From Oryzias latipes (taxonomy: Eukaryota > Chordata > Actinopteri > Beloniformes > Adrianichthyidae): a stretch of DNA of 64,000 nt. The stretch lies in contig NC_019862.2 of the NCBI RefSeq assembly GCF_002234675.1, forward strand, positions 17,569,514 to 17,633,513, given 5' to 3'. Below the pieces are notes generated by a model. The model worked only from the letters and a program-made list of their open reading frames with translations, made no database searches and was not told the DNA's origin. The translations under genes were made by a program, and so were the position numbers. Shown one piece after another: positions 2,797 through 42,429 of this stretch. Position 1 is the first letter of the stretch. Every line of letters starts with the position of its first letter.

Positions 2797-3203
2797 TACG
2801 TCAAGATTCTCTTGTGTGTAGAATGAAGTTATAAGAAGGTTTTAGGGTTATGCTTCAGAGAGCATAAAGATACAAAAAAGTCCATAGAGCGCAAGAGAAT
2901 GAGCAGGAAAATTTAGCAAGTGGTAAAATATGAAAACTCCTTTTAAAAAGCATGTTGTCAATTTGACTGCTATGGTAAATCCAGAAGAGTTACCTGAAGA
3001 CCCAGATTTCTAATGGGTTTTGAAATGAGAATGATAAAACAATGTTATCAAGAAATATACAAGCATTCAGGAACCTATTGATCCGTAGTTCTTTTTTAAC
3101 CTAATTGTGATGTTGCTAATGTTTAAAGCAGTCAAAATGACCGCCTTGGGTGTTCTTGTGTTGATGCACACAAACAGTTGTTTTTGTGTTTTTGTCTCTG
3201 TAG

Positions 3204-4331
3204 TTCTACCCCAATATTATCTGAGGAACTTTCTGGTGAAAGAGGAGGATGCTGAATCCTCCACAGATAAAAGAGCAACAGGAGGAGGTCTACACCAGCC
3301 AGGATGAGAAGCATCTTGATCTGAAGCAGGAAAAGGATACCTTGATGGTGACTCCTACATCTGAGGACAATGACCATAATGAGGCCGATCTTCACTGTCA
3401 GCAGCTGCTAACTTGGAGCTTTGATGCAACTGATGGTCAGAGAAACGAAGGAAGAGAGCATGGAGAATCTAAACCAACTACAGATGGAGAGACAAACCCA
3501 CTGAAAAGAGATGGGAGGAGCAAAAGTACTGTCAGAAATGTGGACAGCTGTCACAGATCAGATCAGTCTGACACTGAGTCAGAGAAAATGTTAGAAAAAC
3601 ATGCTATTGAAAACAATTTAAAGGAAATAAATCTGGAAGAAAATACAAGAATCATAACAGTAGAGAAACATTGTTGTAAAGAGTGTAGAAAATGTTTTAC
3701 AAATGCCAAAAGTTTAAGGCATCACATGAAGATCCACAAAGAAGAAAAGCCTTTTTCCTGTGAAGAATGTGGGAGACGTCTTACTCAAAACAGCACCCTC
3801 ACTAAGCACAAACAAGTCCACACAAGAGAAAAGCCTTTTTCCTGTGAAGAATGTGGAAGAAGTTTTACGGAGAAAAGCAACCTCACTCGGCACAAGTGAA
3901 TCCACACAGGAGAAAAGCCCTTTTCCTGTGAAAAATGTGGGAGACGTTTTACTGAGAAAAGCAGCCTCACTAAGCACAAACGAGTCCACACAGGAGAAAA
4001 GCCTTATTTCTGTGAAAAATTTGGTAAAAGTTTCCCTCTGAGACGAACCTTAGATGTTCACATGAGAATCCACACGGGAGAAAAGCCTTTTCTTTGTGAA
4101 GAATGCGGTAGAGGTTTTACTGAGAAAGGCAAGCTCACTAAGCACAAACGAGTCCACACAGGAGAAAAGCCTTTTTCCTGTGAAATATGTGGTAAAAATT
4201 TCACTTACAGACAAACCTTAGTTGTTCACATGAGAATCCATACGGGAGAAAAGCCTTTTTCTTGTAAAGAATGTGGTCGATGTTTTACTGAGAGAAGCCA
4301 CCTCTCTCAGCACAAACAAGTCCACATGTGA
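3204..4331 (+). pseudogene. C2H2 zinc-finger gene copy 1, terminal exon, disabled
   Basis: This is the third paralogue of genes A and B. Acceptor TCTCTGTAG ends at 3203, and the exon opens with the same [15 protein letters not shown] segment. A one-base insertion near 3252 (gctgaatcctcc against gcagaacctcc in A) shifts the frame. The acidic linker and first fingers then run in the new frame until TGA at 3897-3899, where the paralogues have an arginine codon (HK-stop-IHTGEKP). The same frame continues for five more fingers to the stop at 4329-4331. One of these has lost a zinc ligand (EKFGKSF, Cys to Phe), and early linkers are degraded (HKEEKP, HTREKP). Exon 1 is not in the window and, by the spacing of A and B, would lie left of it. 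It is most likely a pseudogene. A short truncated protein cannot be excluded. Confidence 0.85.
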
Positions 4332-5480
4332 AGAGCTTTTTTCTTGTGAAGAATGTGGGAGCATTTACATTGGCAGAAAAAAAAACTAACTTTCACATGA
4401 GAAGGAAGATGGACTGTGATTGTCCATCTAGAGATGGCAATAACAGCAGCAGACCCTGTATTTTTTGTATATAAGTCATATTTCTCTTGTATGGTTAACA
4501 CTCGGGTTCCCTTTCATTTTTTTATAGTGAATATTTATTTTCTTTTATTACTATTCTTCCTTTCCAGAATATTTGGTCTAATTGGGGTTAAAATTCTTTA
4601 CTTGACACAGTGGATTTAATTTGAAAGTCAGCTATAGTTTGATGGTCAATAATGAGAAATTGAACAAGATGAAAGTAAAATATATTAATTTAAGAAAATG
4701 TTTCTTTGCTGTTGAAGAAATTGCAACACAAAAAAATAAAGTTTTCAAAAGTTGGAGACGGGCTTCAATGGGAAGCAATTTCCAACTGATCCCCATGTTA
4801 AGAATTTTCAACTTTACTCCAAAAATAAATGTATGAAAAAGTAACTCTGGTATTAAAATTGTTTTTATTGCTTTATTTTCTATTCAAAACAGCTGGAGCA
4901 GGAGTTAAATTTGTGCAAAAATTGAGCTGATTTGTTTTTCTTTCATTGTCCTTTTTTAAGTTTCTGGTGTGGATGGAAGTTTTTTTCACCCATTATTCAA
5001 AGCAATGTGCAATTATCTCTTGTAATTGTCAAATGCCTTTTGCAATTGGAAATTCAATATGGAATATTACAATTCAATGTTACGCTTTAAATCAAATATT
5101 AAATAAAAAGAATATCAAGTTACTACCGAGGTCTGCATAAGAACATCTCTGAAAGCACACCACGTTCAACATTGAGGCAGATGGACTACAGCAGCAGAAG
5201 ACCCCACTGAGTGCCAATCCTGTCAGCTAAGAGCAGGATACTGAGGCTACAATTCACACAGACTCACCAAAATTGAATAATCGAAGATTTAAAAAACTTT
5301 GCCTCTTCTTCCCTTCTTTTCTTTAAAAAAACAAAACACACAAAAATGTTACCTGGTCTGATAAGTCTCCATTTCTGCTGCTGTGGTAATGATGAGGAGA
5401 CACGTCTTGTCTTCTGAACGTGAAGTTTTATTCACTCAAATGCTAACTAAATAAGGCTGGCAAAATCATCATCATATATA
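4332..5480. other. 3' flank of zinc-finger copy 1 with Tc1 relic
   Basis: This flank aligns with the regions after exon 2 of A (27.2-27.7 kb) and B (48.4-49.0 kb), including an AATAAA-bearing AT-rich segment near 5100. From about 5125 to 5300 it holds a plus-strand Tc1/mariner relic. The same relic is found in A and B, but here it is uninterrupted where A and B carry a LINE. No other gene is seen. Confidence 0.6.
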
Positions 5481-7082
<1,602 letters not shown>

Positions 7083-7095
7083 TATATACACAGAA

Positions 7096-7326
7096 CAGTT
7101 AGACCACGCCCCAAGCAGCTGCAAAAACTGTTGGATGTGAAGCCCAAAGGTAAGGGGCTTCACACACCTGGCCATTTGGGCTGGCAACCAAAATGTCCTC
7201 TAGATGGATGAATACGAACCCGAGATCATGTAGCACTGAGTCCATAAACCTTTGAAAAGTCTGGGCTGCACTTTTAAGACCGAAGGGCATGCGCAGGAAC
7301 TCAAAAAGTCCAAAGTGAGTGATCAC
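7096..7326 (-). pseudogene. Ty3/gypsy reverse transcriptase fragment
   Basis: The minus strand encodes FGLFEFLRMPFGLKSAAQTF followed by DSVLHDLGFVF and IHLEDILVAS. This is the RT core of Ty3/gypsy retrotransposons, in which the catalytic box is normally YLDD. Here it reads HLED, losing the first catalytic Asp. Only about 75 residues remain, with no LTRs nearby. It abuts the Tc1 on the left and, on the right, a scrap (about 7328-7360) resembling the inverted terminus of the element at 19,865-20,987. Confidence 0.75.
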
Positions 7327-7389
7327 CACAGGCTACGTTCACACTGCAGGCGTCACATGTGGACCCAATTCCGATTTTATATATATAAT

Positions 7390-8496
7390 TACAGTATTTG
7401 TTTCTTTTAGGTAAGGAAAATCACTCTTGCACAGCTTAGTTTTCCTGCTTGTTCCTAACCTTGCTTTCGTATTTCCATTCCAACATTTGTCCTGATTGCT
7501 TTCTCCTGCTGCCAGTTTTTTGCAGAGTTCCACAGGGAGTTTAAGCCAGTACTGATGCATGACCTTAACCTGTTTGGTGAGATCCAACATCTGCAACAGC
7601 ACCCCAAAAAACACATTACTCTCAGCGACAAGATGATCAAATATTTTTGCAGACATATTTTCTGTTTTTTTACAAGTTTAAATATTAAAAATAAAAAAAA
7701 AGTTGTGTGTTGGGTGGTGGTTTATGAGAGCTTTAAAAGTATATACCCACTAAAGTCTTTACTGATGGATTTGTAACCATGACAACATGTCTGCACATCA
7801 ATGTGGTGATTTTCTCTGATTAAAAGGTCAAAGCTTAGAAAACAGCTGCTCTAACAGAACCTTTCATTAAGTCTTATTAAGAAGTAGGAGATAAAGCTGT
7901 GAAGCATTTCTACACATAAGTTGCTTCCTGTTTGACCAATGAGGATTCAAAGACAGGTGACAATCACCAGGATCTACAATGATACCAAGAGAGGAAAAAC
8001 TACAGATTATTTTTGGAAGTTTTTTTTTGTATTTGTTTATATAGTTTTAAAAAATTGCACCTGCTACTGTCAAAGCAGAAAGGAAAAAATCCTGATTTTA
8101 TAAATGTGCACATTACTAATAAGATTCGTGCATCTGAAATTTGACTGAAGTCTATAAATAAAGGTTGTTTAAAAAAAAAACGTCTTTGAAAAATAAAATT
8201 CCAAACATCGCTGGTCAATCCAGACTTCAATATGTTTCATAAAAATAAGAAATGCCAACCTGTGCTTTCAGTCTGAGCCCAGCAGTCGGCGATGGTCTAT
8301 ATTCCAGTGCGGTTTGTTGACTGCTTTTTGTCTTCTGTTCGTGGAGGGCGGGATTTCCTCTTCCAGATTCTTCCAGACTTCCACGTTCGATAGACCTGAT
8401 CGATAGGAAGTGTGGAAAAGCAAGAACGATGACTATGCTGGCATTTTTGATGCTATCGTGGCTGATCTTCTTGATTCAGTATCACAAAGTAATATC
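7390..8496 (-). pseudogene. Duplicated glypican-1 fragment (exons 7-8 and intron)
   Basis: The block aligns with 55,150-56,650 inside the gpc1 gene. Exon 8 is copied at 7460-7590 with the same 131-bp length, an intact frame (VMHQYWLKLPVELCKKL, then QDKCWNGNTKAR) and its TTGCAG acceptor, but the donor has changed from GTGAGT to GTTAGG. Exon 7 is copied at 8260-8395 as 136 bp instead of 138, because two bases are missing in CGAACGTGG (gpc1: CGAACATGTGG), which shifts the frame. No other gpc1 exons lie nearby, so it cannot make a glypican. The copy lacks the MITE and the LINE-like tail that interrupt this intron in gpc1. It carries about 270 bp (7910-8170) absent from the gpc1 intron. It sits between zinc-finger copies 1 and A. 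Confidence 0.9.
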
Positions 8497-8499
8497 TTA

Positions 8500-9060
8500 T
8501 CTGTCAATAAGAGGTTGTTCCAGAACTGTGAAGACTGTTTTAGATGTCGTTTGGCAAACTCTAATCTGGCCTTCCTGCTTTTGAGGCTCGCTCATGGTTT
8601 ACATTTTGTGGTAAACCCTCTGTATTCCCTCTGGTGAAGTCTTCTCTTGATTGTCGACTTCAACACACATACACCTACCCCTGGAGAGTGTTTTTGATCT
8701 GACCAACTGTTGTGAAGGGTATTTTCTTTACCAGGGATAGAATTCTTTGGTCATCCACCATAGTTATTTTTCGTGGTCTTCCAGGTCTTTTCGCGTTGCT
8801 GAGCTCCCCGGTGCATTCGTTCTTTTTAAGAATGTTCCAAACTGTCGTTTTGCCAATGCCTAATATTTTTGCTTTTCTGTCTAATGGTTTTCTTTTGTTT
8901 TTCAGCCTAAAGATGGCTTGCTTCACTGATAGTGACAGCTCTTTGGATCTCATCTTGAGAGCAGCAACAGATTCCAATTGCATACAGCACACTTCAAAAA
9001 CTCTGGACCTTTTATCTGCTCATTGTAATTGGGATAATGAAGGAATAACACACACCTGGC
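8500..9060 (-). pseudogene. Tc1/mariner relic, N-terminal transposase
   Basis: The minus strand reads MRSKELSLSVKQAIFRLKNK, ILGIGKTTVWNILKKNECTG, ELSNAKRPGRPRK and FTTVGQIKNTLQ. This is the DNA-binding half of a fish Tc1 transposase family different from the 5.5-kb element. Sequence further left (8500-8650) resembles the following part of the same transposase but is frame-broken. The right edge carries the element's untranslated terminus. A sister relic with the same left motif (CACACATACACCTACC) lies at 32.0-32.37 kb, consistent with the tandem duplication. Confidence 0.75.
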
Positions 9061-9580
9061 CAACACTCAAGCGTGTGTGTTGGCTCCCCCTCAGGCTGCA
9101 TCCTGCTGGCAGGCTGGGGTCTTCCCTGTTGCTTGTCAAAGCGAGCAAAGAAGAGGTCCAGTGTGTCTGGGAGATCCCTGCCCTGACTGACCTGTGTGGT
9201 GGTTCTGTTGTAGTCAGTCAGAGTCCTGATTCCTCTCCACATGCTGTGAGGGTCGTTGTTGCTAAAGTGTCTCTCTGTCCGTTGTCTTGGGTTGTTTTTG
9301 GCTTCCTTAATTCCTTTTGTCAAATTCGTCCGGGCTGTGCTGTATTCTAGCTGGTTTCCTGACCTGTAGGCGGTGTTCCTGGCCTTTAGCAGCCTTTTGC
9401 TGCTCACAAGGCCGTGCAGCTCCTCTAGCGCTAGTTTAGCATTAGCCTGTGGTGGGATGTCAAGAGCAATAATCTGGGCGATTGAAAACTCCCTCGGCAA
9501 GTAAAGTGGTCTACATTTCACTGCCAGATATTCCAGGTCTGGTGAGCAGTCAAGTCTCTGTGAACACCGACACACACCTG
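9060..9580 (-). pseudogene. L2/CR1-type LINE ORF2 fragment
   Basis: Minus-strand peptide with DLEYLAVKCRPLYLPREFS and IPPQANAKLALEELHGLV (end of an endonuclease domain), then directly ARNTAYRSGNQLEYSTART, LTKGIKEAKNN and FSNNDPHSMWRGIRTLTDY (the segment before RT). The endonuclease centre is deleted between the two parts. No RT catalytic motif remains. The region 9580-9950 next to it holds no recognisable gene. Confidence 0.7.
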
Positions 9581-10237: not shown

Positions 10238-10291
10238 TTTTTTAATTCAAAAACAACCACAAAAAATGTTTTAGATGCAAGAAATAATGTG
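10238..10291 (+). repeat. 54-bp direct repeat, left copy
   Basis: This segment, with core AATTCAAAAACAACCAC and then ATGCAAGAAATAATGTG, recurs at 10,778-10,831 with few differences. The two copies bracket a Tc1 remnant. They are far longer than a Tc1 target duplication, so they may come from unequal exchange or a local duplication. Gene B has only the right copy (about 33,605-33,661). Confidence 0.7.
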
Positions 10292-10777
10292 CCATTGTCA
10301 TCACAGGAACTTCAAGCTGCTTAGAGATGGTTTTATAGCCTTTACCTTTACGATGTTTGTCAATAATTTTGTTTCTATTGTCCCGGGACAATTCTCTCCT
10401 TCGCTTTCTGTTGTCCACCAAACAGCAGCGTGACTATTTGTCTACCCTTAAATAGGCAGGCAGACTGACTGATTTTGGGTTTGAAAAAAGCTGTGATGTC
10501 AATTAAAAGACATACCTGAGTTCATCATGGCCCCCTGGGCAATTAGTTCTGTCTTTTGTCCAGCCCTATTTCATTAGTTTGTTTTTTTAAATAATTCTGT
10601 TAATCAACAACTCAAAAATAATGGCTGATTTTATTATTTAATTTTCAATAAATTTTAATATATTGTTAATTTTGAACGTTTCAAGTCATTTCAGTGAGCA
10701 TTGTGGGCTTTCTTTCTTTAACTAAGGGGTACCAACAATTTTCTCCACCACTTTAAACATTTTAAAATAATTTGTAT
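10292..10777 (-). mobile_element. Tc1 remnant, N-terminal part and right terminus
   Basis: This is the same family as the 5.5-kb element. It keeps the reversed helix-turn-helix coding part (AACTTCAAGCTGCTTAGAGA...), the untranslated leader and the right inverted repeat ending CTCCACCACT. The catalytic two-thirds of the transposase and the left terminus are missing. Its right part aligns with the Tc1 upstream of gene B (to about 33,590), so it predates the A/B duplication. Confidence 0.75.
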
Positions 10778-11004
10778 TTTTTTAATTCAAAAACAACCAC
10801 AAAAAAGGTTTTGCATGCAAGAAATAATGTGACTTGTGAAGATTTCTTTTAACATTTTTGCCAACAGGCCGAAATCCATTAATATGCAAATTCAATCATG
10901 TATGTAATGACCCTACTCAATGCAGGACCTGTAGCATGCAGGGTGCATTTTGTAAATGGATTGTCAGTCCTCCTGTTGGTGAAGAATTAAAGACATTTCT
11001 ATTT
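10778..11004. other. Upstream flank of gene A shared with gene B
   Basis: No coding sequence. Aligns with 33,605-33,838 upstream of gene B. In B the sequence runs on directly to the promoter-proximal segment. In A it is interrupted at 11,010 by an L2 LINE. Confidence 0.7.
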
Positions 11005-11010
11005 CCAGTA

Positions 11011-21429: not shown

Positions 21430-21560
21430 TGCAGAAAACCCTCTCTGCATGCAGGTGAACATGCTAACTTCACACAGAAAGGACCCTTTTGGGATTTGAA
21501 CCAGAGCCCTCTTGCTATGAGGCACATCTGCTAACCAGTCATTGTGCAGCTGTGACAAGT
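21430..21560 (-). repeat. SINE head (tRNA-like), reversed
   Basis: Contains TTCACACAGAAAGGACCC, TTTGGGATTTGAACCAGAGC and TCTTGCTATGAGGC. Its reverse complement resembles the fish repeat head with a tRNA B-box-like GGTTCGAATCC core, here decayed. The same unit occurs at 54,740-54,885. Confidence 0.5.
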
Positions 21561-25829: not shown

Positions 25830-27155
<1,326 letters not shown>

Positions 27156-28349: not shown

Positions 28350-30890
28350 GTTTTTTTTTTTTTGTTTTTTTTTTTACTTAAGTGAGACAATAGAGGAAAA
28401 AAACAACAAACTAAAATATACTGGAAAAACAGATCTGACAAACACAGACAGCTACCACTACTAACATACAAAAACTGAAGGGTAAAAATAAATAAATAGG
28501 AAAAGTGTGAGTGTGTGTGGGTGTTTGAGATGTAAGGACAACAAGAGAGAATTCCATCCACAAACTTGAATTTACCATCATACATTCTGCTAACTATACA
28601 TATTTAGCGCTACATTATTATTTATATATTTGTTTATTTAACAGATGCAGTGCACATTTAAGGCATGGCTGCAATGTGCCAGAATTAGCCGAAAGGCTAT
28701 TTTCCAGCTGTAGAAAATATACATGTACAATAAACAATCTTTTAAAATACATAAAACATGCACAAAGTGAGAAACACAAAAACAAAAGACACAAAGGTGA
28801 CAGATCAGACAAGGAGGGCTAGGCATTAAAATCATCAGCCAGAATATTTTTACGATTTGTCTTGGAAAAGAACATTGCAACCCCTTTGTTTACATTGAGA
28901 CTTAAACTCGACTGTTCCAACAATTCTGCAACATGTCCCATCATTCTGGTGAGATTCTCTGCCACCTCAGATGTTTTTTTTGCCATGTGCATAAATGACA
29001 GTATCATCAGCATACATCTGAATGAAGACATTTGAACAAACAGAAGGGAGGTCATTAATGTAGAGCAGTGCTTCTCAAATAGTGGGGCAGGCGATGCCAG
29101 GGGGGTGGCGGTTTTAGGCTCAGGTAATACGGGCAATTGTCAGGTGTGCAAATTTAACCTGGGGGCGGCGGTGACAGCGGCTCAGTGCTTGGAAAAAAAA
29201 TCTGGTCCACTATTCGGTTCCTATTGTCTGTTCTATCAGAGTTTGTAACAGCCTGAAACCGTGAATCCCCGTCCCTGTAGCTGCACGTTCCCATCTCCTG
29301 TCACATGCGGCTGCGCGAGTGAGAACGAAAGGGGAGGGGTGGTGTTGGCTCTGTCTGCCAGGTGAATCGGGGCACGCGGACCACTGCTAGAGCTGCCTGT
29401 TGCCCAACACCAGGATCACCGCGTGCCTTTAGATTCCTCACCTCATGCTAAAAAGTCATTCTTTATGAACTATTGTAGAAATTTTGATGACGTCTTTATT
29501 TTCCATCTATCTTTTCTGTGTCTGCCTGTGGTTTAGTTGGTGTCAGACAGACAGAAAGACAGCAGTAATGCAGGAAAACAGCTGCACTTGATGAGATCAT
29601 GAATAAACAATCATTTAGAAAAAAAATATCGGAACAAAGTTTTTTATCTATTTCTTCAGACTAAAAACGTTAAATATATTGGTGCTGCTGTGTTGATGTT
29701 TCAGATCAATTTACATTTATTATTAATTACTAATTGAATTTTTTTTTGTCAGCATCAAATGGTTCAGTTGGTCAAAATGTTTCTAGTTTAAATAAGGAAT
29801 GACAGATTTTTTTTTATTTCAGGCACTTTAAGCTTCTTTTCCTTTTTAGACTATAATAGGGTTTCTGTGGTTAAAAGTTAATATTTGTTGAAAGTGGATT
29901 TATGTTGCTTTTTCTTTTGTTAGTGTTAAAAGATACAATTTTAGGTAGACGTACACAAATTTTATAGATACTAACCTAATATATTGTCAACGCGCGCATA
30001 TGTGTGTGTGGGGGGTGGGGGTCAGGGGGGGGGGGGGGGCGCAAAACATTTTCTTTTTCCTAGGGGGGGCTGGCAAAAAATAATTGAGAAGCACTGTTGT
30101 AGAGAGAGAAAAGAGGCCCTAGTATGGAACCTTGTGGAACACCTGTAGAGATATGGAGAGGAGGGGAAAGATGATGATTTATCCTGACTGACAGATCTAT
30201 TTGATAAATATGATTCCATCCATTTTATATTTTTCAATGAAAAATTAAATTTGGTTACTTTAGTTAGTATTTTTTTATGATTGGTTGTGTCAAAAGCTTT
30301 TTTCAGGTCAAGAAACACAGCCCCAACTACACCACCCTTATCAAATAGAGATTTTATGTTTTCTTTGAAAAAGCAGTTAGCTGTCTCTGTTGAGTGCCGA
30401 GCTCTGGAACCAAACTGCATTGGATGAAGAGAAAAAGATGAATTGTTGATTAGATCATCATATAGATAAATAGGAAAGGCTTGAGACAAATATAACTATG
30501 CATTCATCATATTCTTGATACTAGAAAAGTCAGTAGCAGTAAAAGTCACAGAGTAGAAATAATCCTCTTGTCATTATTACAAAAAAAGATAATAGTAATC
30601 TCAGATAAAACTTAATGTTCGTCTAGGAACTCAATGAAAGCTGACCATACAGATGGTGGTCCGGTCGTGTCAGTGGGAGAAGGTAATGAATTGGCTAAAG
30701 AAATGTATTCAAGAAACAAGTTTTTTCCATATAGATAGGTTTATGGTGTTCTTTGATTTCCAGCTCATGAAGATGTTTTTTTAGCAATTGTTATTGCAAC
30801 AAGAATAAATTTGTTCTTAGACGGGTCAAGATTCAAATGTGATAATTCTGAAAGGTCTCCTAATATACACAGTGACGGTGATAAAGGCAG
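28350..30890 (-). pseudogene. CR1/jockey-like LINE relic (shared with gene B)
   Basis: Reversed coding pieces include QFGSRARHSTETANCFFKEN and VVGAVFLDLKKAFDTTNHKK (RT motif A), near 30,490-30,100. LTRMMGHVAELLEQSSLSLN and VNKGVAMFFSKTNRKNILAD follow near 29,000-28,820. It inserted into the Tc1 relic: copy 1 has the uninterrupted site (GAGGTCTGCATAAGAACATC near 5130), and GCAGCAGAAC appears at the junctions. A hAT element (29,066-30,096) later split it. Many frame breaks. Confidence 0.7.
29066..30096. mobile_element. Non-autonomous hAT element inside the LINE
   Basis: Starts CAGTGCTTCTCAAATAG and ends AATAATTGAGAAGCACTG. The 8-bp flanks are ATGTAGAG and TTGTAGAG (7 of 8 match). Gene B keeps the empty site AATGTAGAGAGAGAAAAG at about 51,232. 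It includes sequence like the CAGTGGCGGTTTTAGG family near 29,095 and a G-run at 30,025-30,040. No intact transposase. Confidence 0.85.
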
Positions 30891-31562: not shown

Positions 31563-31986
31563 TCAGAAACACATCAGCCCAATTAACCCAATTGAGCATG
31601 CATTTCGCTTGTTGAAGACTAAACTTCAGACAGAAAGGCACACAAACAAACAGCAACTGAAATCCGCTGCAGTGATGTCCATGAGTTCAAGACTTCAGGC
31701 TGCCATTGCCAACAAAGGGTTTTCCACCAAATATTAGTAATGACCATTTTGTTTTCAGTTATTTCATTTGTCCAGTTACTTACGAGTCCATGAAATGAAG
31801 GGATTGTGTTTAAAAAATGCTTTGGTTTTTCACATTTTTATGCAATTTTTTTGTTCTACCCAATAAAAGCTGAAAGTCTGCACTTAAATGGCATCTGAGT
31901 TGTTTTATTTAAAATTCACTGTGGTAATGTACAGAAACAAAATGAGAAAGAATGTGTCTCTGTCCAAATGTTTATGGTCCTGACTG
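31563..31986 (+). pseudogene. Tc1 transposase C-terminal relic and terminus
   Basis: Plus-strand reads INPIEHAFRLLKTKLQTE, NKQQLKSAAVMSMSSRLQAA and IANKGFSTKY-stop (to 31,737). The catalytic Glu of DLNPIEH is retained. About 18 residues (the KAWQSIS segment) are deleted. The terminus AAATGTTTATGGTCCTGACT ends at about 31,986, followed by (TGTA)n. It is the same family as the N-terminal relics at 8.5-9.06 and 32.0-32.37 kb. Confidence 0.75.
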
Positions 31987-32011
31987 CATGTATGTATGTA
32001 TGTATATACAC

Positions 32012-32365
32012 ACATACACCTACCTCCTGGAGAGTGTTTTTGATCTGACCAACTGTTGAGAAGGGTATTTTCTTCACCAGGGACAGAATTCTTTAGTCAT
32101 CCACCATAGTTGTTTTTCGTGGTCTTCCAGGTCTTTTCGCGTTGCTGAGCTCCCCAATGCGTTTGTTCTTTTTAAGAATGTTCCAAACAGTCGTTTTGCC
32201 AATGCCTAATATTTTTGCTATCTCTCTAATGGTTTTCTTTGGATCTCATCTTGAGAGTTAACAGCAACAGATTCCAATTGCATACAGCACACTTCAAAAA
32301 CTCTGGACCTTTTATCTGCTCATTGTAATTGGGATAATGAAGGAATAACACACACCTGGCCAATG
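32012..32365 (-). pseudogene. Tc1 transposase N-terminal relic (sister of 8.5-9.06 kb)
   Basis: Reverse strand encodes a decayed GKTTVWNILKKNKRIGELS and RPGRPRKTTMVDD segment, with the untranslated terminus at its right. A stretch coding for SLSVKQAIFRLKNK is deleted compared with the 8.7-kb relic. Confidence 0.65.
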
Positions 32366-32512
32366 TAACAGCTGAGAAGCCAAATGTCCCATTCGTTTTG
32401 GTTCCTTAACAAGTGGGAAGCACATATGCAAACTTTTATAATTCCTACACCGCTCACTTGATCTGGATGTAAATACCCTGACATTTTGCAGTTAACCCAC
32501 ATCTTTTTTGTT

Positions 32513-33268
32513 TCATTTGAAATCCATTGTGGTTTTGTGATTTCGATCCAGAATGCCTTGATAATCTTGAGATTTTATTTTACCTTGCACAACTTGCACA
32601 ACAAGATACCCTGTGCCAGATGCAGGAAAGCAGGCCCAAAACAGAACTGAGCCTCCTCCATGTTTCACAGTAGGGACGGTGTTCTTTTCGTTGTATACTT
32701 CATTTTTGAGTCTACGAACATAGAGCTGATGTGCCTTACCAAAAAGCTCCAGTTTTGTCTCATCTGACCAAAGGACATTTTCACAGAAGCTTTGTGGCTT
32801 GTCAAAATGCATTTTTGCTAATTCCAGTCTCACTTTTTTATGATTTCCTTTCAACAGTGGTGTCCTCCTTGGTCCTTTCCAATGAAGTCCACTTTGGCTC
32901 AAACAACGACGAGTGGTGCGATCTGACACTGATGTACCTTGATCTAGGAGTTCACCTTTTATGTCTTCGGAGGTTGTTCTGGGTTCTTTGGATACAGTTC
33001 CAACCATCAGTCTCCTCAATTTGTCATCAATTTTCCTCTTCCGGCCACGTCCAGGGAGGTTGGCTACTGTCCCGTGGGTCTTAAACTTCTGAATAATATG
33101 TGCCACTGTCGTCACATGAACTTCAAGCTGCTTAGAGATGGTTTTATAGGCTTTACTTTTATGATGTTTGTCTATAATTGTGTTTCTAATGTCCTGGGAC
33201 AATTCTGTTCTTCGCTTTCTGTTGTCCATGTTCAGAGTGGTACACACCTTTTCACCAAACAGCAACAT
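32513..33268 (-). pseudogene. Tc1 transposase, 3'-truncated
   Basis: A 251-codon frame related to the 5.5-kb element: [46 protein letters not shown] and LWSDETKLELFGKAHQ, with the first catalytic Asp and canonical DETK kept. The frame leaves the transposase after DYQGILDRN at about 32,548, so the second Asp, the Glu and the left terminus are missing. The right inverted repeat extends to about 33,590. Located 0.9 kb upstream of gene B. Confidence 0.85.
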
Positions 33269-33988
33269 GACTATTTGTCTCCCTTTAAATAGGCAGAATG
33301 ACGCTGTGATGTCAATTAAAGGACATACCTGAGTTCATCATGACCCCCTGGGCAATTAGTTCTCAGTCTTTTATGGAGGTACCAACATTTTTTTCCAGCC
33401 CTATTTCACTAGTTTGTTTTTTGAAATAATTCTGTTAATCAACAACTCAAAAGTTGATTTTGATTATTAAATTTTCAATAAATTTTAATTTATTGTTAAT
33501 TTTGAACGTTTCAAGTCATTTCAGTGAGCATTGTGGACTTTCTTTCTTTAACTAAGGGGTACCAACAAATTTGTCCACCACTTTAAACATTTTAAAATAA
33601 TTTGTATTTTTTTAATTCAAAAACAACCACAAAAAAAGGTTTTGCATGCAAGAAATAATGTGACTTGTGAAGATTTCTTTTAACATTTTTGCCAACAGGC
33701 CGAAACCCATTTATATGCAAATTCAATCATGTATGTAATGACCCTACTCAATGCAGGACCTGTAGCATGCAGGGTGCATTTTGTAAATGGATTGTCAGTC
33801 CTCCTGTTGGTGAAGAATTAAAGACATTTCTATTTCCAGTAATTCCTTAAGGAGGTGTGTTGCAGCTGCACTCACTTGAGTGATAAAGATGCTGTTAAAT
33901 AAATGGAATGTTTTGAGAGGTATTTGTGTAATAAAACGTATGATAAAAATAACATTCATCGTTTTGTGACGTTGTGACATATTCCTCT

Positions 33989-34002
33989 CCACTAGGTGGC
34001 GG
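33989..34002 (+). promoter_or_regulatory. CTCF-like motif upstream of gene B
   Basis: CCACTAGGTGGCGG, identical to the motif upstream of gene A and 146 bp before the gene B start codon. Binding is not shown. Confidence 0.5.
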
Positions 34003-34148
34003 TAAAAAGCTGTAACCTTATTTTCAAGCAGCTATTTGGAGAAGTGGTAGAAGAAGAAAAAGCATCAGTGCTTATTGTCCATTCAAAGCATGTTGTTAGT
34101 GCTTTTCGTCACTTCGTCCACGTGACTTTCTGGGCCGCTGCGGTAACA

Positions 34149-34320
34149 ATGTCTTCAGATGAGTTTTCTAAAGAATTTAACGACGCCGTGTTAAGCGATG
34201 CTGCTGAAAAAATAATCAAACGCTTTGAAGAAACCAGCGTTCACTACGAGGAAGAGCTCCGTCGACAGAGCAGACTGCTGGAAGTCGTCGGTGATCTACA
34301 GACACAACATCCAAGTTTAC
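34149..34320 (+). CDS. Zinc-finger gene B, exon 1 (N-terminal domain)
   Basis: ATG at 34,149; donor CTTTAC-equivalent GTTTAC|GTGAGT. The encoded MSSDEFSKEFNDAVLSDAAE, FEETSVHYEEELRRQSRLLE and VVGDLQTQHPSL differ from gene A at only a few residues (for example D to E, I to N, R to G). The exon length of 172 bp and phase equal those of gene A. Joined to 46,696-48,368 it gives 614 codons and a stop with no frame break. The promoter-proximal sequence is also conserved with A but lacks A's L2 insertion. Confidence 0.87.
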
Positions 34321-34424
34321 GTGAGTTCATTTTTGCTTTCATAACGATGGAGTATTACAATCACCATGATAGAAATAAATTAAGATACGAGACGTAATTT
34401 AAAAGGGAAAATTAGGTATGTGAC

Positions 34425-37400
34425 TCAAATTTTAAAATTAATTGGACTTTCTCGATCATGTAGGCTAGTTGGTTGTTTTTTTTTATTGAACAATTGCAAT
34501 TTTATTAGAAAATTTGCTTTTGTGAATGTGGAATTTAGCCATAAATTAAATAATAACATGTTTATGCAAAAGAAAGCATCTCGATATTTGACATCAAAAC
34601 TATGAAAACCAAATAGTATGTTTTTATAATAAAGTTGTAAATCAGCAAAAATAGAGTTGGAGATAAAGTTTTTCCAAAATTTGTATGTGAATTCACAAGA
34701 CCAGAATAAATGGGCGCAGGTTTCAGGTTGTTTCTGGCAGAAAGTACAGTTAGTGTTTATGTTAGCTTTAAATTTAGTTAAATAATGTTTTGCTGGATAA
34801 AACCTGTGTAGAAGTTTAAAAGAGATTTCTTTGACTTTATTTGTTAAGAAGTATTTTTGTGGTAAAGACCAGACTTTTTTCCATTTAATGTTAGAAGTGA
34901 AATTAGCCCAATAAGAGGTAGCCGATGGAACATAAACTAAATTATCTTGGAACAAAGCTCTGATTTTTGAGTTCAACTGTTTAGCGGAAGTGAAGCAGAA
35001 ACTACCCAGAGGGGATTTGAGCACATCAGGAGGATGAAGAGTCAGAGGATGAGCGCTGTAGAAACCCCTGAATAACATGCAAAGCCCAGACGGGACGGCA
35101 TCAAACACTACTGCAAATTCTTTGGGAGTTATTGGTATTTTATACTGCATTGTGAAATCTGAGTAGTTATATAATAATCCAGGTTCTTTGAATAATTGAT
35201 TGAGGAAAATTATACCATTATTAAACCAGTTACTTAAAAACAGAGTTTTCCTTTTATAGACAATATTACAGTTATTCCAAATAGTACAACTCTGTGGAGT
35301 AAAGTTTTGTTTGTAGATCAGAGCCCAGGCTAAGAGAACCTGTTGATGAAAATTTGACAGTTTCAAAGGGATTTTTGGAATTCTATAGTTACAGCATAGC
35401 AGGAAGTTAAGGCCTCCTACCTTTGAAAATACAAAATGTGGAATAAAGTTCCAGATAGATGTGGGGTTATTGAGATATTTCTTAATCCAGATTACCTTGA
35501 GTGTATTGTTAAGGGCAGTGAAATCTATACAATTTAAACCGCCTTTATCAGAGGTATTTAAAATAACTGATTTTCTGATATAGTGGGTTTTATTTTTCCA
35601 TAGAAAGTTATACAACATTCTATTAATTGCATTGCAGACTGTGTTATTAACCTGTAGAGATTGAGCCGCATAAATTAAACGAGAGATTCCTTCTGCTTTT
35701 GTAAGCAGAACTCTGCCCTTCAAAGATAGATCTCTTTGCAGCCATTGGTTTAGGGTTTTTTGGGTTTTATCTATTATTGGAGAGAAATTTGTAGAACATC
35801 TGGATTGCATATCTTTGGTAATTTGAATGCCAAGGTATGTTACAGATGTTTTTACAGGAATACCTTGGATAGATGTAAGCAAACAGTTTTTAAATGGCAG
35901 AATTTCACATCTATTTAAATTAAGGGTAAGTCCTGAAGCTTTAGAAAAGGACTGGATGATATTAATCGCCACAGCTACTTGTGAAGCGTCTCGGAGAAAG
36001 AGAGCAGTGTCATCTGCTAGTTGACTTATGAACATTTCCCTCTCAGCCACAAGTAAACCTTTTAATGGGCTGAGTTTAATATGTAGGTTGAGGAGTTGAA
36101 CAGAAAGATGAAACAGATAGACTGACAAGGGGCATCCCTGCCTTACCCCACGTTTCAAGAAGAATCTAGGAGAAGTTCCGCTGGCGAGTTTTATAGAACT
36201 ATTACTATTGACATATAAAGTTTGAACAGCATTGCAGAAGAATTGACCAAAACCAAATTTATTTAAGGCAGCAATAATAAAATTGTGTTCTAAAGAATCA
36301 AAGGCTTTATAAAAGTCTAGAAAAAGAATGAGACTGTCATCCTGCACGAGTTCTGAGCAATCAAGTATGTCTAAAATTAATCTAATATTGTTTGAGATAT
36401 GACAATTCTGCATAAATCCAGACTGATTTTCATCAATAATTGTATCTAAGACAGGCTTTATTCTATTTGCAAGAATCAAAGCCAATATCTTATAATCACA
36501 ATTCAATAAGGGGATTGGTCGCCAGTTATCTAAGGAAAGAGGATCCTTTCTCGGTTTAGGGATCAAGGTAATCAGTCCTTGAGATAACGTGGGAGGGAGT
36601 GCACCCTTGTTAATGGTTTCTTCAAAAACTTTTAATAAAAATGGGGCTAAGTTGTCAGAAAACTGTTTATAGAACTCGGCAGTAAGGCCGTCTGTTCCAG
36701 GAGATTTATTTATTTTCAGATATTTTATAGCATCTGTAACCTCATTCAAAGAGATGACATCATCACAACAGACTCTGTCGGCTTCACTCACTGGAGTAAT
36801 ATTATTGACAGTGTTAAGAAAGGTAAGGGCAGATGTTGAACAATAGTTGGAAGAATAAAGTTTACTATAAAAATCAGAACAATATTTTGCTATGGTACTT
36901 CTATCATCAGAAATGACCCTATTAATATTTAATTGTGAAATAGAATTGCTATTGGACTGGTGTTTCTCTAGCCTGAAAAAATAGGCAGAGTTCTGCTCTC
37001 CTTCTTCAATCCACCTTCTCCTGGATCGGATAAACGCTCCTTCAGCTTTGCGTTTATAAATGTCATCTAACTTGTGTTGTAAGTCTATTAAAGCTGTTTT
37101 ATCCGTTTCATCTAGGACATCTGTTGGCTTAGATGTAAGAAGAGCAATCTTCTGTATTACATCTGTCTCAACAGCTCTTCTTTTTTTTGTTAAGTCAGAG
37201 CTATATTTTCTAAAAAATTTACCAAGTTCGTATTTCAAAAGTTCCCAATTATTACAGAATGAGTGTTCAGCTAGTGCTTTGTTCCAATAAAGTTTAATTA
37301 AGCGATGAGTTTCAGAAATCACCTCCAGATGCTCGAGAATGGTACTGTTTAATTTCCAGTATGAAGCTTTAGCTCCAGAGGAGCTCGACAAAGGGACAGT

Positions 37401-38099
37401 TAAATGAATTGTTTTATGGTCTGAAAGCGGTGTGGCATGAATAACTGTTTTAACATTTTTTAAGTCTTTAGAAGTAAGCCAGAAATCAATGCGTGAGTGT
37501 CTGGTCTGTGATTTGTTACACCATGTATAAGCTCTTTGGTTTGGATGCGAGTCTCTCCAAGAATCAATTAAATCTAATTTTTGTGCAAACAACTTTATAG
37601 GAGAGTTAGAGTCTGGACTCCTGGGAGGCCATCTATCCATAGAATTATCAAAAACTGAGTTAAAATCCCCTCCAAATATTATAAAAGACTTTGGGTATTT
37701 AGACAGCCAGTGCAATAAACGTGTTTCTAGTCTATTGAAGAGAAGATTATTTTCTGTTTGGGAGTTGAAACCGTACACGTTGACTAGAATAAAGACGGAA
37801 TGGGCTACTTCAAGTATTATAAAAATGTAATGACCATCTTTATCGCTGTCAGATAGCAAAACTTTTCCATTGAATCTGTTTTTGAGAATGCAGACACCAG
37901 CAGCTCGCTCTGTACCATGTGACATCCACACATCATTTCCCCACTGTGACCTCCAAAAAGATTTGTCTTGTTCAGTTGAGTGGGACTCTTGCATAAAACA
38001 AAGATCTGAATTAAACTGCTTACAAAACAAAAAAATGGCTTTACGTTTAACATTGTTTCTTAAACCTCTCGCATTTAAAGAAATAATGGATAAAGACAT
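34425..38099 (-). CDS. L1 ORF2 protein: endonuclease and reverse transcriptase
   Basis: A 1,224-codon frame from ATG at 38,097-38,099. The N-terminal AP-type endonuclease has LSIISLNARGLRNNVKR, CFMQESHST, FGGDFNSVFD, RIDFWLTS and LSDHKTIHL. RT follows: NWRPIPLLNCDYKILALIL, LFLDFYKAFDSLEHNF (motif A), KRGVRQGCPLSVYLFHLS (motif B) and ISQLADDTALFLRD (motif C, LADD). A Cys/His cluster, CTFCQKQPETCAHLFWSC, lies near the end. Catalytic residues look complete. Near 34,540 the frame shifts: the alternative frame gives the expected KFHIHKSKFSNK tail with a stop overlapping the A-run. The open frame instead reads through the A-run and target duplication into flanking DNA, adding foreign residues. The family's usual 3' UTR seems absent. 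Confidence 0.9.
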   Translation of the reverse strand: MSLSIISLNARGLRNNVKRKAIFLFCKQFNSDLCFMQESHSTEQDKSFWRSQWGNDVWMSHGTERAAGVCILKNRFNGKVLLSDSDKDGHYIFIILEVAHSVFILVNVYGFNSQTENNLLFNRLETRLLHWLSKYPKSFIIFGGDFNSVFDNSMDRWPPRSPDSNSPIKLFAQKLDLIDSWRDSHPNQRAYTWCNKSQTRHSRIDFWLTSKDLKNVKTVIHATPLSDHKTIHLTVPLSSSSGAKASYWKLNSTILEHLEVISETHRLIKLYWNKALAEHSFCNNWELLKYELGKFFRKYSSDLTKKRRAVETDVIQKIALLTSKPTDVLDETDKTALIDLQHKLDDIYKRKAEGAFIRSRRRWIEEGEQNSAYFFRLEKHQSNSNSISQLNINRVISDDRSTIAKYCSDFYSKLYSSNYCSTSALTFLNTVNNITPVSEADRVCCDDVISLNEVTDAIKYLKINKSPGTDGLTAEFYKQFSDNLAPFLLKVFEETINKGALPPTLSQGLITLIPKPRKDPLSLDNWRPIPLLNCDYKILALILANRIKPVLDTIIDENQSGFMQNCHISNNIRLILDILDCSELVQDDSLILFLDFYKAFDSLEHNFIIAALNKFGFGQFFCNAVQTLYVNSNSSIKLASGTSPRFFLKRGVRQGCPLSVYLFHLSVQLLNLHIKLSPLKGLLVAEREMFISQLADDTALFLRDASQVAVAINIIQSFSKASGLTLNLNRCEILPFKNCLLTSIQGIPVKTSVTYLGIQITKDMQSRCSTNFSPIIDKTQKTLNQWLQRDLSLKGRVLLTKAEGISRLIYAAQSLQVNNTVCNAINRMLYNFLWKNKTHYIRKSVILNTSDKGGLNCIDFTALNNTLKVIWIKKYLNNPTSIWNFIPHFVFSKVGGLNFLLCCNYRIPKIPLKLSNFHQQVLLAWALIYKQNFTPQSCTIWNNCNIVYKRKTLFLSNWFNNGIIFLNQLFKEPGLLYNYSDFTMQYKIPITPKEFAVVFDAVPSGLCMLFRGFYSAHPLTLHPPDVLKSPLGSFCFTSAKQLNSKIRALFQDNLVYVPSATSYWANFTSNIKWKKVWSLPQKYFLTNKVKEISFKLLHRFYPAKHYLTKFKANINTNCTFCQKQPETCAHLFWSCEFTYKFWKNFISNSIFADLQLYYKNILFGFHSFDVKYRDAFFCINMLLFNLWLNSTFTKANFLIKLQLFNKKKQPTSLHDRESPINFKI

Positions 38100-39704
38100 G
38101 AAGTTGAAATAGAAAAAAAGAACAAAAACAAAAGATATTTAGACCAAAGAAGAAGAAAAAAGAAGTTGAGTTAAGGATTTTTGGTCGCTTAGGAACAGAA
38201 AGAGGATAAGAACCTGCAAACCATTACAAAAAAAGCTGTGAACTAAGACGCTAACAATAACTATTTCCTTATGAAATAACGCCAAAGTGATGGGCGTTAT
38301 TAGTCCCATCTTACTCATAAGAGTAAATGTTTGAAGAAAAAAATAAATAAAAATAAAACCCACAATGCTGCTACTTGATTCACATTTAAGTATAATGTAA
38401 TACTTAAAATAACATAATGTTAAATCAAAAACAAAATTAAAGCAAGATAATAAAAATTAAAATAAAAAGTAGCAGCTTGAATGCAATAACTTATGAGCTC
38501 AAATAAAATCAAATTTTAAGCAACAGTATCATCTTTTACAAATGTGGAAAATAGCAAAAAACGTTCAAATCCAGATTTCACATCTGCAGCCTTCGTTAAG
38601 GCGGCAGGATTTCTTTACCATTCACAAAGGCATGTCCTCCAACAAAGAAGGCCAGCTTGTTCTCCCTCCTGGCTTTCTCCACGGCCGGCCACAGTTTGTT
38701 TCTCCGTTCGCGGTCCTCACCAGACAGATCCTCCGACATCCTCAGGTTGTGTTCTTTCAGGAAGGCGGACTTCTTTGCGGTGCGCCAGACAGCATCGCGG
38801 TGAATCCTCGCAGTAAACTGGATGATGATCCCTCTCGGTTGGTTGTTGTTCGGTCTCTTCGGGCCGAGTCTGTGTACTGTATCCACAACATCGGGGAGTT
38901 TGTCTTTCGCCTCCGGTCGAACAGACTGGCAGATCTGGATCACTTCTTGCCGCACGTTCTGATTTTCTTTCTCAGCCAAACCGCGAAGTTTCAGATTCCA
39001 GCGGCGGGAGTAGCTTTCGAGCTGGGAGATCCTTTTTTCCTGTGTTTCCACGATTGTTTTATATTTCTCCAGTTGTGGCTCAGCGTGGACCACTCTGTTC
39101 TTCATGTCACTAATTTCAGTACAAACGACATCAACGGAGCCTTTTACAGCTGAGATTTGCATGGAGTTCTCCTGCACAGCTTTATTCCTCTCAGAGATCT
39201 CTCTGGAGTTGCCGCTAATTAACTTTTCCAGAGTGTCTGACCTCGACTTTATCAATTGTGTAAGTTAGTAAGTTTCTGTGACTTTTCTCAGCTTACCAGC
39301 TGGGGAAGCAGTGGGTGTGCAGGGAAGAGCAGGAAAGTCTTCTTCTTCCATTAGGAATGGTTCCGAAACTGTAGTTTAGTTGAACATGTAGTCATGCATT
39401 GAGTCAATTAATTTGACTTTAGCATCAGTAGTCTTACTCGACGCAGACGGCTTTGCAGGATGGCTAACGTTAGCAGGTTTGCTAACAGAGCCAACACTCG
39501 CTAGCGATTTCTTGAGTTCCGTCTTTCTCTTCTCTGCTTTGCTCATATTGCTTTGAGAACTATGCAAAAAGTATAAAGACATTGGAAAGAAGTAAAAAAA
39601 AATCAAGAAAGGGTCTTTGCTCACCGTGTATTATTACAAAAAACAGTTAGGTTTGCAGAGCTTAGCCAAACGCGACTGTTCAGAGCGCCATCTTGGTCAC
39701 CCCC
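34477..39704 (-). mobile_element. Nearly full-length L1-clade LINE
   Basis: A 5.2-kb minus-strand element bracketed by the 15-bp direct repeat AGGCTAGTTGGTTGT (34,462-34,476 and 39,705-39,719). The 3' end has an A-run directly after an AATAAA. The 5' end reads GGGGGTGACCAAGATGGCGC, with a YY1-like CAAGATGGCG also found at the start of mammalian L1 elements. ORF1 and ORF2 follow in order, separated by about 500 bp. Absent from the aligned position in gene A (near 13,270), so it inserted after the A/B duplication. It lies antisense to gene B's transcription, 160 bp after the exon 1 donor. Confidence 0.93.
38596..39546 (-). pseudogene. L1 ORF1 protein with two nonsense codons
   Basis: Frame from ATG at 39,544-39,546 (MSKAEKRKTELKKSLASVG). 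TAA at 39,376-39,378 and TAA at 39,265-39,267 interrupt one otherwise continuous frame, which includes MEEEDFPALPCTPTASPAGK between the stops. After them come a coiled-coil-like stretch (TLEKLISGNSREISERNKAV ... QEKRISQLESYSRRWNLKL), an RRM-like core (NLKLRGLAEKEN) and a C-terminal domain (RDAVWRTAKKSAFLKEHNLR, RRNKLWPAVEKARRENKLA). In L1 elements ORF1 protein is a trimeric RNA-binding chaperone. Downstream start codons might still give an N-truncated form. Confidence 0.88.
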
Positions 39705-39786
39705 AGGCTAGTTGGTTGTGAGCCGCTGTGGGTACCGGATGTTCTCGGGTTGCCGGATGTTCTCGGGGTCCTTCGGGGTCCTTCGA

Positions 39787-39836
39787 CCAATGATGACGTC
39801 ACACTATTTGATTGGCTGCAAGTTGCCACGACCAAT
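39787..39836 (+). promoter_or_regulatory. CCAAT/CRE cluster
   Basis: CCAAT at 39,787-39,791, palindromic TGACGTCA at 39,794-39,801, ATTGG (reverse CCAAT) at 39,811-39,815 and CCAAT at 39,832-39,836. Such spacing is typical of NF-Y plus CREB/ATF promoters. It lies inside the inverted-ended element, and no downstream gene is recognised. Motif evidence only. Confidence 0.45.
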
Positions 39837-39849
39837 GAGTTAACGTTGC

Positions 39850-40450
39850 TAAGTTTTTTTTAAAACTTTATTGACAATTGCGGTATCATACATTAATAAG
39901 TACACTAACATTAACAACGAACAATAACAATGTACCGGTAATCAATATTGCCTCGAAGATCAGTCACCATTGCCAAACATAACATATTAACATAAAAAAT
40001 AAAGAATAGTGGGGAAAAAAGAAACAATGAACATAACACATAAATAAATAAAAACATAAGTAAAATAAAATAAAGGAACATAGAAAAAATCTAAAAAGTC
40101 TAATACTAGTTAGGGGTACTCGTGAAGTTTGTATTTCTAAACAAAACTAAGAAATTTCAAGCCATTCTTCTTTTTCATATAATGAAGTGATTGAAAGTAA
40201 AAACAGAGCTCTTTATTAAATGTTATAAAAAGTAGTTTGGTCTTCAAAATTTTATTTTTGTGTATATAAAACTTTCCTTGCAATATCAGGATATTAAGAA
40301 CTGTATTTTCTGGTCTATATGATACCACACCGGATAGAACATTTTTTGAGTGTAAATGAAATGGCATTGCAATTTTGGAAGAATACCAGAAGCAGAACTC
40401 ATCCCAGAAATTTTTAATAATTCCACAGTTAAAGAATTTGCATTGCAGTT
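39850..40450 (-). pseudogene. 5'-truncated L1 ORF2 3' end and 3' UTR
   Basis: Minus-strand QLQCKFFNCGIIKNFWDEFC, FHLHSKNVLSGVVSYRPENT, GKFYIHKNKILKTKLLFITF and NKELCFYFQSLHYMKKKNGL, ending in a stop at about 40,137. This is the C-terminus of an L1 ORF2 from a different subfamily to the 34.5-39.7 kb element. About 280 bp of 3' UTR follow to a T-run at 39,850-39,857. Confidence 0.8.
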
Positions 40451-40765
40451 GTAACTTGACCTCACCAAGATGGCGGTGCTCTCCTCCCATAAGGAACCAC
40501 GTGATGTCTCCTCTAGTGATATAACTCATTGGAAGGACCCCCGAAGGACCCCGAGAACATCCGGCAACCCGAGAACATCCGGTACCCAAACCGCCAGCTA
40601 CATCCTCTGACTAAGCTTTTCAGAGCAGTTATTATAAAAACTCTATTTGATGTCAAATCCAAATGATTCATACTACTAAAATGATTTTTGAAACAAAAAC
40701 AATCCCTTTCGTGTGTGGGTGTGGTGGTGGGTGGTGAATTTCAAATGAACAACATTTATTTATTT

Positions 40766-42149
40766 TACGGTGGCCCACAAACACTTTAGATCTCGCAACA
40801 ACAACACACTCATAACAACACACAAAAAATTAACTCACAACACGAAACAATAACTCACAACACTTTAATTCAAAGCGGAAGTATATGCAACGGAAGTGCT
40901 AGTTTTATTCAGAAATTTCCACTGGCCTTAAAAATCAGTAATCACTTCTCCATACATGGTTAATAAAAAAAAAAAGATTCTTCTGCAGCTTGTCTCCCGC
41001 TTTGTCTGAGAGTCGTCTGGGGGACAGCTGCTTCTGTGTCTTTCTGTGTCTATGTGACCCACTTTAAAGCCTTACTGTCCCGCAAAAACCTGAGGGGGGA
41101 AAATAAAAACAAAAATAAAATTAGGCTACCCTTTTTATTTTTATCCTATGAAAATAAGAAAATTATCAGTTCTTTAAAGTTTGAAAGATATTCACAGATT
41201 CAGACTTCCAGCCTCAAAAATTCTTCTGATTAATGGTTAAATGAGACAGCAAGCATCTCAGTCATGTTGTATTAACACAGAGAGTGAACTAAAAATCTAT
41301 TTCTAAAGAAAAAAAGTTTTTTCTGCCTTTGAGAAGTGTTCTCTTCCAAACGGCTGCCAAGGGACCGTCACCAAAGTGCATTCTGAGCAAAGACCATTCT
41401 GTAAAAATCAATAATCTCTCAAAAACAAATAAATGTTAGAAAAAATTAATACAATAAATAAAGATGGACTTTCTCCCAAAATATTGATTGTAGCATGGAA
41501 ATGCCGATGAGTCTTCTTCAGTACCAGGTCATGTAAATGTACACATTTATTCATTTTTGAGAGATTATTCATTTTTCAGAATGGTCTTTGCTTAGAGTTT
41601 GCACTTTGTTGACGGTCCCTTGGCAGCGGTTTGCTGCATCAATATGATTGAGATACTTGCTGTCACATTTGAAAGTTTATCAGAAGAGTAATTGAGGCCG
41701 GAAGTCCGAATCTTTAAATATCTTTCCGACTTTAGCAGACTGATTTTTTTCTTTCTTATTTTCATAGTGATAATAATAAAAAGGTTCCCTAATTTTATTA
41801 TTATTATTATTATTTTCCCCTCTCCGGTTATTTAGGGACTTTGAGCCTTTAAAGTGGGTCACATAGACACAGAAACACCCAAAACCGTCTGTCATTCAGA
41901 CAAAGCGGGAGAGAAGTGTGAGAATCTCTGGACGGATCTTGTGAACCCTTGCCCAGTGGAAATTTCAGAATAAAAGCACTTCCATTGCATGTATACTTCT
42001 GTTTTGAGTTTAAGTGTTGTGTTGTAAGTTATTGTGTTGTGAGTTATTATTTCGTGTTATTTTTTTTAGTGTCATGATGAATTGTAGTGTGTTATTTTGT
42101 GTGGTGTTGCGAAACCAAAAGTGTTGTGTTGCCTTTCTGGGCCACAGTA
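40766..42149. mobile_element. Complete 1.4-kb fold-back element, about 0.6-kb arms
   Basis: The ends are TACGGTGGCCCAC and the inverse GGGCCACAGTA. Long stretches match in inverse order, including ACTCACAACAC.../...GTTGTGAGTTATT, GGAAGTATATGCAACGGAAG / CTTCCATTGCATGTATACTT, ATGTGACCCACTTTAAA / TTTAAAGTGGGTCACAT, and GACCATTCTGTAAAAA / TTTTTCAGAATGGTC. The palindrome is centred near 41,470. No coding capacity recognised. A broken copy lies in gene A's intron (13,289-15,850). Confidence 0.8.
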
Positions 42150-42429
42150 TTTTTTCTTTCTTAAAAACACACTAAAAAATCTGGCAAACAGAAAAGGAAT
42201 GAAAATAAATGCAAATGAAGAAAACTATTTTTCATAATCTAAATAAAAGGCAGAAATCAACAGATTATTTTCCTAAAAAGGCCTACATCATGCTCTTTTT
42301 TAGCCTTTCAGAGTAATTTTTATCCACATATATGATAATATATTACTTTTGGCACACTATGGAATGATTTTTATAATGAGATATTGGTTATTTTCGCTGC
42401 ACAGTTTCCCTACCCGAGGGGTCGGCAAC

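Follow-up and report, generated by a model that had tools for sequence, protein, structure and literature searches.

A partial copy of glypican-1 between zinc-finger units

The DNA analysed here, a stretch of 64,000 nucleotides from Oryzias latipes to which we refer as the window, contains an array that we read, from its sequence, as three zinc-finger units (U1, U2 and U3), followed by the glypican gene gpc1 on the minus strand (Table 1). When translated, gpc1 exons 7, 8 and 9 give a better match to solved glypican-1 (E 1.1e-41) than to glypican-2 (E 2.9e-20), and Pfam Glypican matches were found, in gene order, at 58951-59214, 58295-58669, 57692-57964, 57305-57658 and 53288-53620, with the score of the piece at 57305-57658 being slightly under the curated cut-off. 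A putative last coding piece at 52.7-52.9 kb, recognised by eye, ends at 52731, and an exon at 60.3-60.5 kb was likewise recognised by eye, without database support. Counting the visible exons, and assuming one more upstream of ~60.3-60.5 kb, leads to the exon numbers 7 and 8. The right-hand edge of the array, at 51872, is separated from the putative stop codon of gpc1 by ~0.86 kb, and the array thus borders gpc1, as had been proposed.

A BLAST comparison of the window with itself yielded 53 matches, from which those of at least 60 columns were used. It shows 7388-8498 to be a copy, at the DNA level, of 55144-56647 within gpc1, on the minus strand. Four colinear, same-strand blocks join the fragment to its parent (identity 86-95%, best E 5e-131), at an offset of 47.8-48.4 kb. 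The block limits are those of the self-comparison, and a whole-length alignment places the middle of the intron wrongly. The original prediction held that gpc1 exons 7 and 8 with their intron are duplicated about 48 kb away at 7390-8496, in the same orientation; the copy is real, with better limits at ~7388-8498, and the intron is duplicated in part. Its account of the exons also stands, exon 8 being open and of the parental length and exon 7 carrying a 2-bp deletion. The exon 8 copy retains a Pfam Glypican match (E 2e-10), whilst two of the four substitutions in the exon 7 copy change an amino acid when read in the parental frame; together, the exon copies carry 8 changes over 267 bases, five of them amino-acid-changing.

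Intron 7 of gpc1 holds two stretches absent from the fragment, 55419-55843 (~430 bp), through either gain in gpc1 or loss in the fragment, and 55920-56125 (206 bp). Conversely, ~260 bp of the intron copy are absent from gpc1, through either gain in the fragment or loss in gpc1. This fragment-only stretch has a terminal AATAAA and a run of A, resembling a retroposon tail, and could be an insertion. The 206-bp stretch is a MITE-like element with a further copy at 50226-50437. In gpc1 its right border is TTAA and its left border ATAA, and the fragment is uninterrupted at this site, with a single TTAA; the simplest order of events is therefore that the copying preceded the insertion of the element. 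Both ends of the fragment lie inside gpc1 introns, which amounts to two gpc1 breakpoints instead of the single one originally supposed.

Judged by its sequence, the fragment is a dead, unprocessed, partial pseudogene of gpc1, unprocessed because intron and flanking-intron sequence has been kept. A retrocopy is ruled out by the presence of the introns. Its coding capacity is disabled by the 2-bp deletion in exon 7 and by the lack of partners, as a sequence search of positions 1-51872 found no copies of the remaining gpc1 exons. The exon changes and the frameshift would fit a loss of constraint, the numbers being small, and the fragment appears to be a passenger, with no function indicated. Gene capture by a transposon is unsupported by bounding repeats (Helitron-type ends carry no such repeats). 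Phage records held no match to the sequence, and among the matches listed in a literature search there was no account naming this locus. The fragment should be annotated as a pseudogene. Mis-mapping of gpc1 reads, about which the original prediction had warned, is possible but a minor risk, as none of the 1012 exact 100-mers is common to fragment and parent and the longest exact stretch is 81 bp.

Table 1. Features of the window, with positions counted from its first letter.
Feature	Position	Strand	Description
Block 1, fragment / gpc1	7383-7669 / 55144-55418	same strand	87% identity
Block 2, fragment / gpc1	7655-7730 / 55844-55917	same strand	86% identity
Block 3, fragment / gpc1	7733-7909 / 56123-56299	same strand	95% identity
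Block 4, fragment / gpc1	8171-8498 / 56309-56647	same strand	90% identity
U1	2807-5118	+	copy 1 of the original prediction; oldest zinc-finger copy with flanks; in-frame stop in finger frame
Reverse-transcriptase remnant	7092-7345	-	degraded; left of fragment; RVT_1 E 2.3e-4, under curated cut-off
gpc1 fragment	7388-8498	-	intron 8 (part), exon 8, intron 7, exon 7, intron 6 (part)
Exon 8 copy	7460-7590	-	131 bp, the parental length; open; 4 substitutions (3 amino-acid-changing)
Fragment-only stretch	7910-8170		~260 bp in intron-7 copy, absent from gpc1
Exon 7 copy	8260-8395	-	136 vs 138 bp; 2-bp deletion (frameshift); 4 substitutions
Truncated Tc1-like transposon	8499-9063	-	right junction; transposase-frame pieces reach the gpc1 joint
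U2	8663-31578	+	copy A with upstream spacer; colinear with U3 save insertions and gaps
U2/U3 junction stretch	31579-32007	+	no strong spacer-1 match (best E 2.7e-4, 69% over 75 columns)
U3	32008-51872	+	copy B with upstream spacer
Source gap	51873-55143		3.3 kb; gpc1 exon 9 and putative last exon
gpc1, part seen in window	52731-60523	-	outermost exons at both ends recognised by eye
Parent stretch	55144-56647	-	gpc1 introns 8 to 6
gpc1 exon 8 (parent)	55209-55339	-	
MITE-like element	55920-56125		206 bp, gpc1 intron 7; 20-bp terminal inverted repeats, 90% complementary
gpc1 exon 7 (parent)	56407-56544	-	

Divergence among the zinc-finger units

Once the finger repeats are masked, colinear blocks align 2.8-31.6 kb with 25.5-51.9 kb in a chain, broken by gaps and insertions, several of which are transposons. 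Homology between U2 and U3 extends from 8663 to 31578 and from 32008 to 51872, respectively, with its start inside a Tc1-like element. Between the two units, the junction stretch at 31579-32007, which we take to be the C-terminal end of a Tc1-like transposase, gave no match in a Pfam search. The K2P distances of the flanks were 0.144 for U1-U3 (94/720) and 0.138 for U1-U2 (87/696), over three flank blocks per pair, and 0.056 for U2-U3 (312/5813), pooled over 12 blocks among which the divergence is uneven (0.8-10%, p 3.5e-6). The U2-U3 count omits the finger arrays, the finger-gene coding start at 25830-26356, the Tc1-like part at 10287-10754 and the LINE-region blocks at 28828-29065, 30098-30218 and 30374-30523.

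We also observed several local features of the array. The U1 finger frame (3240-4341) is interrupted by an in-frame stop, 219 codons into the stop-to-stop frame, and U1 may be a pseudogene, given this stop; the finger frames are open in U2 (441 aa) and U3 (591 aa). At the finger-gene coding start (25830-26360 vs 46675-47150), U2 and U3 differ at 5 of 475 bases, against 6-7% in the nearest flanks, which either purifying selection or gene conversion could produce. In the spacers, 10755-11010 and 33585-33841 show 2 differences over 256 positions, with neighbouring blocks at 3.4% and 4.7%, a near-identity attributable to local gene conversion, constraint or later exchange. A LINE at 34425-39264, in the spacer between U2 and U3, has a 1237-aa open frame with endonuclease and reverse transcriptase (Pfam) and an upstream 222-aa frame without Pfam match, and is possibly a recent insertion.

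Junctions of the fragment and the missing 3.3 kb

The fragment lies between copies 1 and A, as predicted, and its right end (gpc1 56647) is close to the left edge of a zinc-finger unit, with 8498 being 164 bp from the left edge of the U2/U3 homology. The chance of a random spacer-1 site falling so near a unit edge is 0.8%, by a crude, after-the-fact estimate. The truncated Tc1-like transposon at this junction has Pfam matches that are all under the cut-off (3.1e-4, 0.079 and 0.011), and its part at 8663-9063 matches 32008-32363 in the self-comparison. The Tc1-like element of spacer 2 reaches no further than 32008 and has no counterpart of 8499-8662, so that the joint 8498/8499 is not comparable with its parent and a further change has to be assumed. 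Close on the left of the fragment are a second, different Tc1-like element and the reverse-transcriptase remnant, presumably gypsy-like.

No repeats were found at the two ends of the fragment in 7090-9070. A 17-nt inverted pair (7092-7108/8772-8788, 76% complementary) spans the fragment at a distance, and a 14-nt exact direct repeat, CACACACCTGGCCA, at 7161-7174 and 9049-9062, also spans the region at a distance. The Tc1-like elements to the left and right have no mutual match among the matches listed (at least 60 columns). A transposase cut site was considered at the left end, where gpc1 TACAGTATTGG resembles one end of the Tc1-like element at ~7088, and was dropped because the opposite end of that element has a different sequence.

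When the source gap 51873-55143 was compared with 1-51872, there was no match at E 1e-3, bar one of 71 bp at 21453-21522. Under two scoring schemes, no remnant of it was found at the U2/U3 junction, and matches to the U1 tail were weak (best E 0.007-0.01, ~62%). Among these, 54911-54989 matches 5252-5334 (63%, E 0.01), at the position expected of a remnant of a former tandem copy; judging by the sequence, this match is probably AT-rich noise, because the same query also matches 7034-6927, on the opposite strand, at a similar E.

Age of the fragment

Over four blocks, the fragment introns differ from gpc1 by a K2P distance of 0.077 (41/564; 95% interval 0.053-0.101), which is below that of U1-U3 (Fisher p 9e-4) and U1-U2 (p 2.6e-3). 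Relative to pooled U2-U3, the fragment looks slightly older (p 0.066). With another aligner and the zinc-finger flanks alone, the fragment (48/548) and U2-U3 (44/531) were similar (Fisher p 0.83), and U1-U3 (100/625, p 2e-4) and U1-U2 (84/593, p 5e-3) again exceeded the fragment. After removal of CpG-type sites, the comparison of the fragment gave p 0.008 with U1-U3, p 0.15 with U1-U2 and p 0.55 with U2-U3. The divergence check proposed in the original prediction thus places the fragment nearer the younger U2/U3 event than the older founding one.

The exon changes were compared with expectation under different dates and rates. At the U1 date, at least 18.8 changes are expected even with gpc1 itself unchanging, versus the 8 seen (P 0.004 or less). 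Taking the pooled U2/U3 date instead, and letting gpc1 exons evolve at 0-0.3 of the neutral rate, one would expect 7.4-9.7 changes, or 14.9 if those exons were unconstrained (P 0.04). From the intron divergence of the fragment itself, the expectation is 10.2-13.3 at a rate of 0-0.3 (P 0.31-0.09) and 20.4 if unconstrained (P 0.002). Viewed by themselves, the introns would be compatible with the U1 date as well, provided that those of gpc1 had barely changed (39.7 differences expected vs 41 seen). Overall, an age for the fragment close to that of the U2/U3 duplication, and below that of U1, is favoured, with moderate statistical support.

Origin of the fragment

In the copy the order is fragment-U2, versus U3-gpc1 in the source, with one orientation throughout. 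In a plain tandem copy, the gpc1 piece would follow its unit rather than precede it. We infer that a single event produced both the fragment and U2; taken whole, the reading of a dead passenger gpc1 fragment, produced together with U2 and with swapped order, has in our judgement somewhat less than an even chance. The copied stretch would have begun in a Tc1-like element, taken in the spacer and the zinc-finger gene and ended in gpc1 intron 6, and its ends would have been joined, gpc1 56647 to the Tc1-like element, at what is today 8498/8499. A point between 51872 and 55144 would then have served to open or enter the joined copy, which would have come to lie beside its source, with the gpc1 tail ahead of the zinc-finger unit. 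The swapped order is what one would expect of a circular intermediate, and also of a template switch during replication. The narrower proposal, that U2 was made via a circular intermediate that swept up two gpc1 exons and that the gpc1 tail dates the event, is conceivable though rather unlikely; if true, the growth of a zinc-finger array through a circle would have left a minor natural scar here. The one-event reading is weakened by the 3.3 kb missing from the copy and by the adjacency of copy and source, and also because the U2-U3 divergence is uneven and the U1-U2 contrast is lost on removal of CpG-type sites.

A stepwise history is a serious alternative, if still a doubtful one. In it, the gpc1 tail would have been put before the next unit by a tandem duplication that reached as far as gpc1 intron 6, the first copy would have been mostly deleted, and a second tandem duplication, ending at 51872, would have given U2 and U3. 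These are common events only, and tandem growth of zinc-finger arrays is common, which counts for this history; however, three of them are required, two being duplications of near-equal age, and the left end of the second must fall by chance within ~165 bp of the fragment. The deletion would explain the 3.3-kb gap, and the weak match at 5252-5334 is where a remnant would be expected, but no strong remnant of 51873-55143 lies between U1 and the fragment. Tandem duplication with partial deletion is also named, in PMC7188851, as able to mimic the permuted pattern.

Independent insertion of the gpc1 piece into spacer 1, via break repair or a transposon, is improbable, since its position at the unit edge would then be due to chance, at the ~0.8% of the crude estimate above. 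The ends of the fragment carry no repeats, the two short ones spanning it only at a distance, and the flanking Tc1-like elements do not match each other among the matches listed. Filler DNA is nonetheless plausible, as the right end enters a truncated Tc1-like element and as both a reverse-transcriptase remnant and a second Tc1-like element lie close on the left, and the agreement in age with U2/U3 is approximate only.

The original prediction took the fragment to be the gpc1 breakpoint of the founding, U1-forming duplication, in accordance with its position between copies 1 and A. We consider this very improbable, as the divergence of the U1 pairs (K2P 0.14) is almost double that of the fragment and the exon changes are too few (P 0.004). 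The intron divergence alone would fit were the gpc1 introns frozen, and without CpG-type sites the U1-U2 contrast is not significant; yet the MITE-like insertion after copying implies that gpc1 intron 7 was not frozen. An assembly error or a misplaced gpc1 haplotype is scarcely credible, given that intron K2P of 0.077, a frameshift, no MITE-like element and non-gpc1 flanks would be unexpected of a misplaced allele.

Origin in one event with U2 therefore remains our preferred, tentative reading, and the age of the fragment points to the second duplication rather than the first as the one that extended into gpc1. The fragment is of interest as a datable marker of one step in zinc-finger array growth, and the swapped order makes the mechanism testable, as a circle or template switch vs serial tandem events.

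Comparison with known systems

Permuted duplications with the same order change have been published, and in PMC7450558 and PMC7188851 swapped block order is taken as the mark of a circular intermediate. As in the cSDPs (PMC7450558) and eccDNA-mediated duplications (PMC7188851) described there, the order at the locus is swapped with orientation kept and the right-hand joint lies inside a repeat element. In contrast to the cleanly opened circle of the PMC7188851 account, which leaves no gap at the opening point, here 3.3 kb (51873-55143) are without counterpart in the copy. The pairs in the PMC7450558 account are non-tandem, whereas here the copy adjoins its source, the U2 homology ending at 31578 and U3 beginning at 32008. 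The joints here, moreover, are not resolved to the base, their parents not being intact within the window for a comparison of microhomology or indels. The circle-mediated cases published in PMC7450558 and PMC7188851 are human, with cattle cited there, and the present one is from a fish. Because of the 3.3-kb gap and the position of the copy beside its source, we withhold classing it as circular; by analogy, the event may work like a circle-mediated duplication.

The fragment resembles unprocessed (DNA-duplicated) partial pseudogenes, with introns kept, two exons only, a frameshift and no sign of an mRNA intermediate, and there is no essential difference from them. Tandem C2H2 zinc-finger gene clusters are a known system, and the array shares with them its tandem finger-array units, with similar coding sequence and more diverged flanks; the difference is that here a piece of the neighbouring gene lies at a unit boundary.
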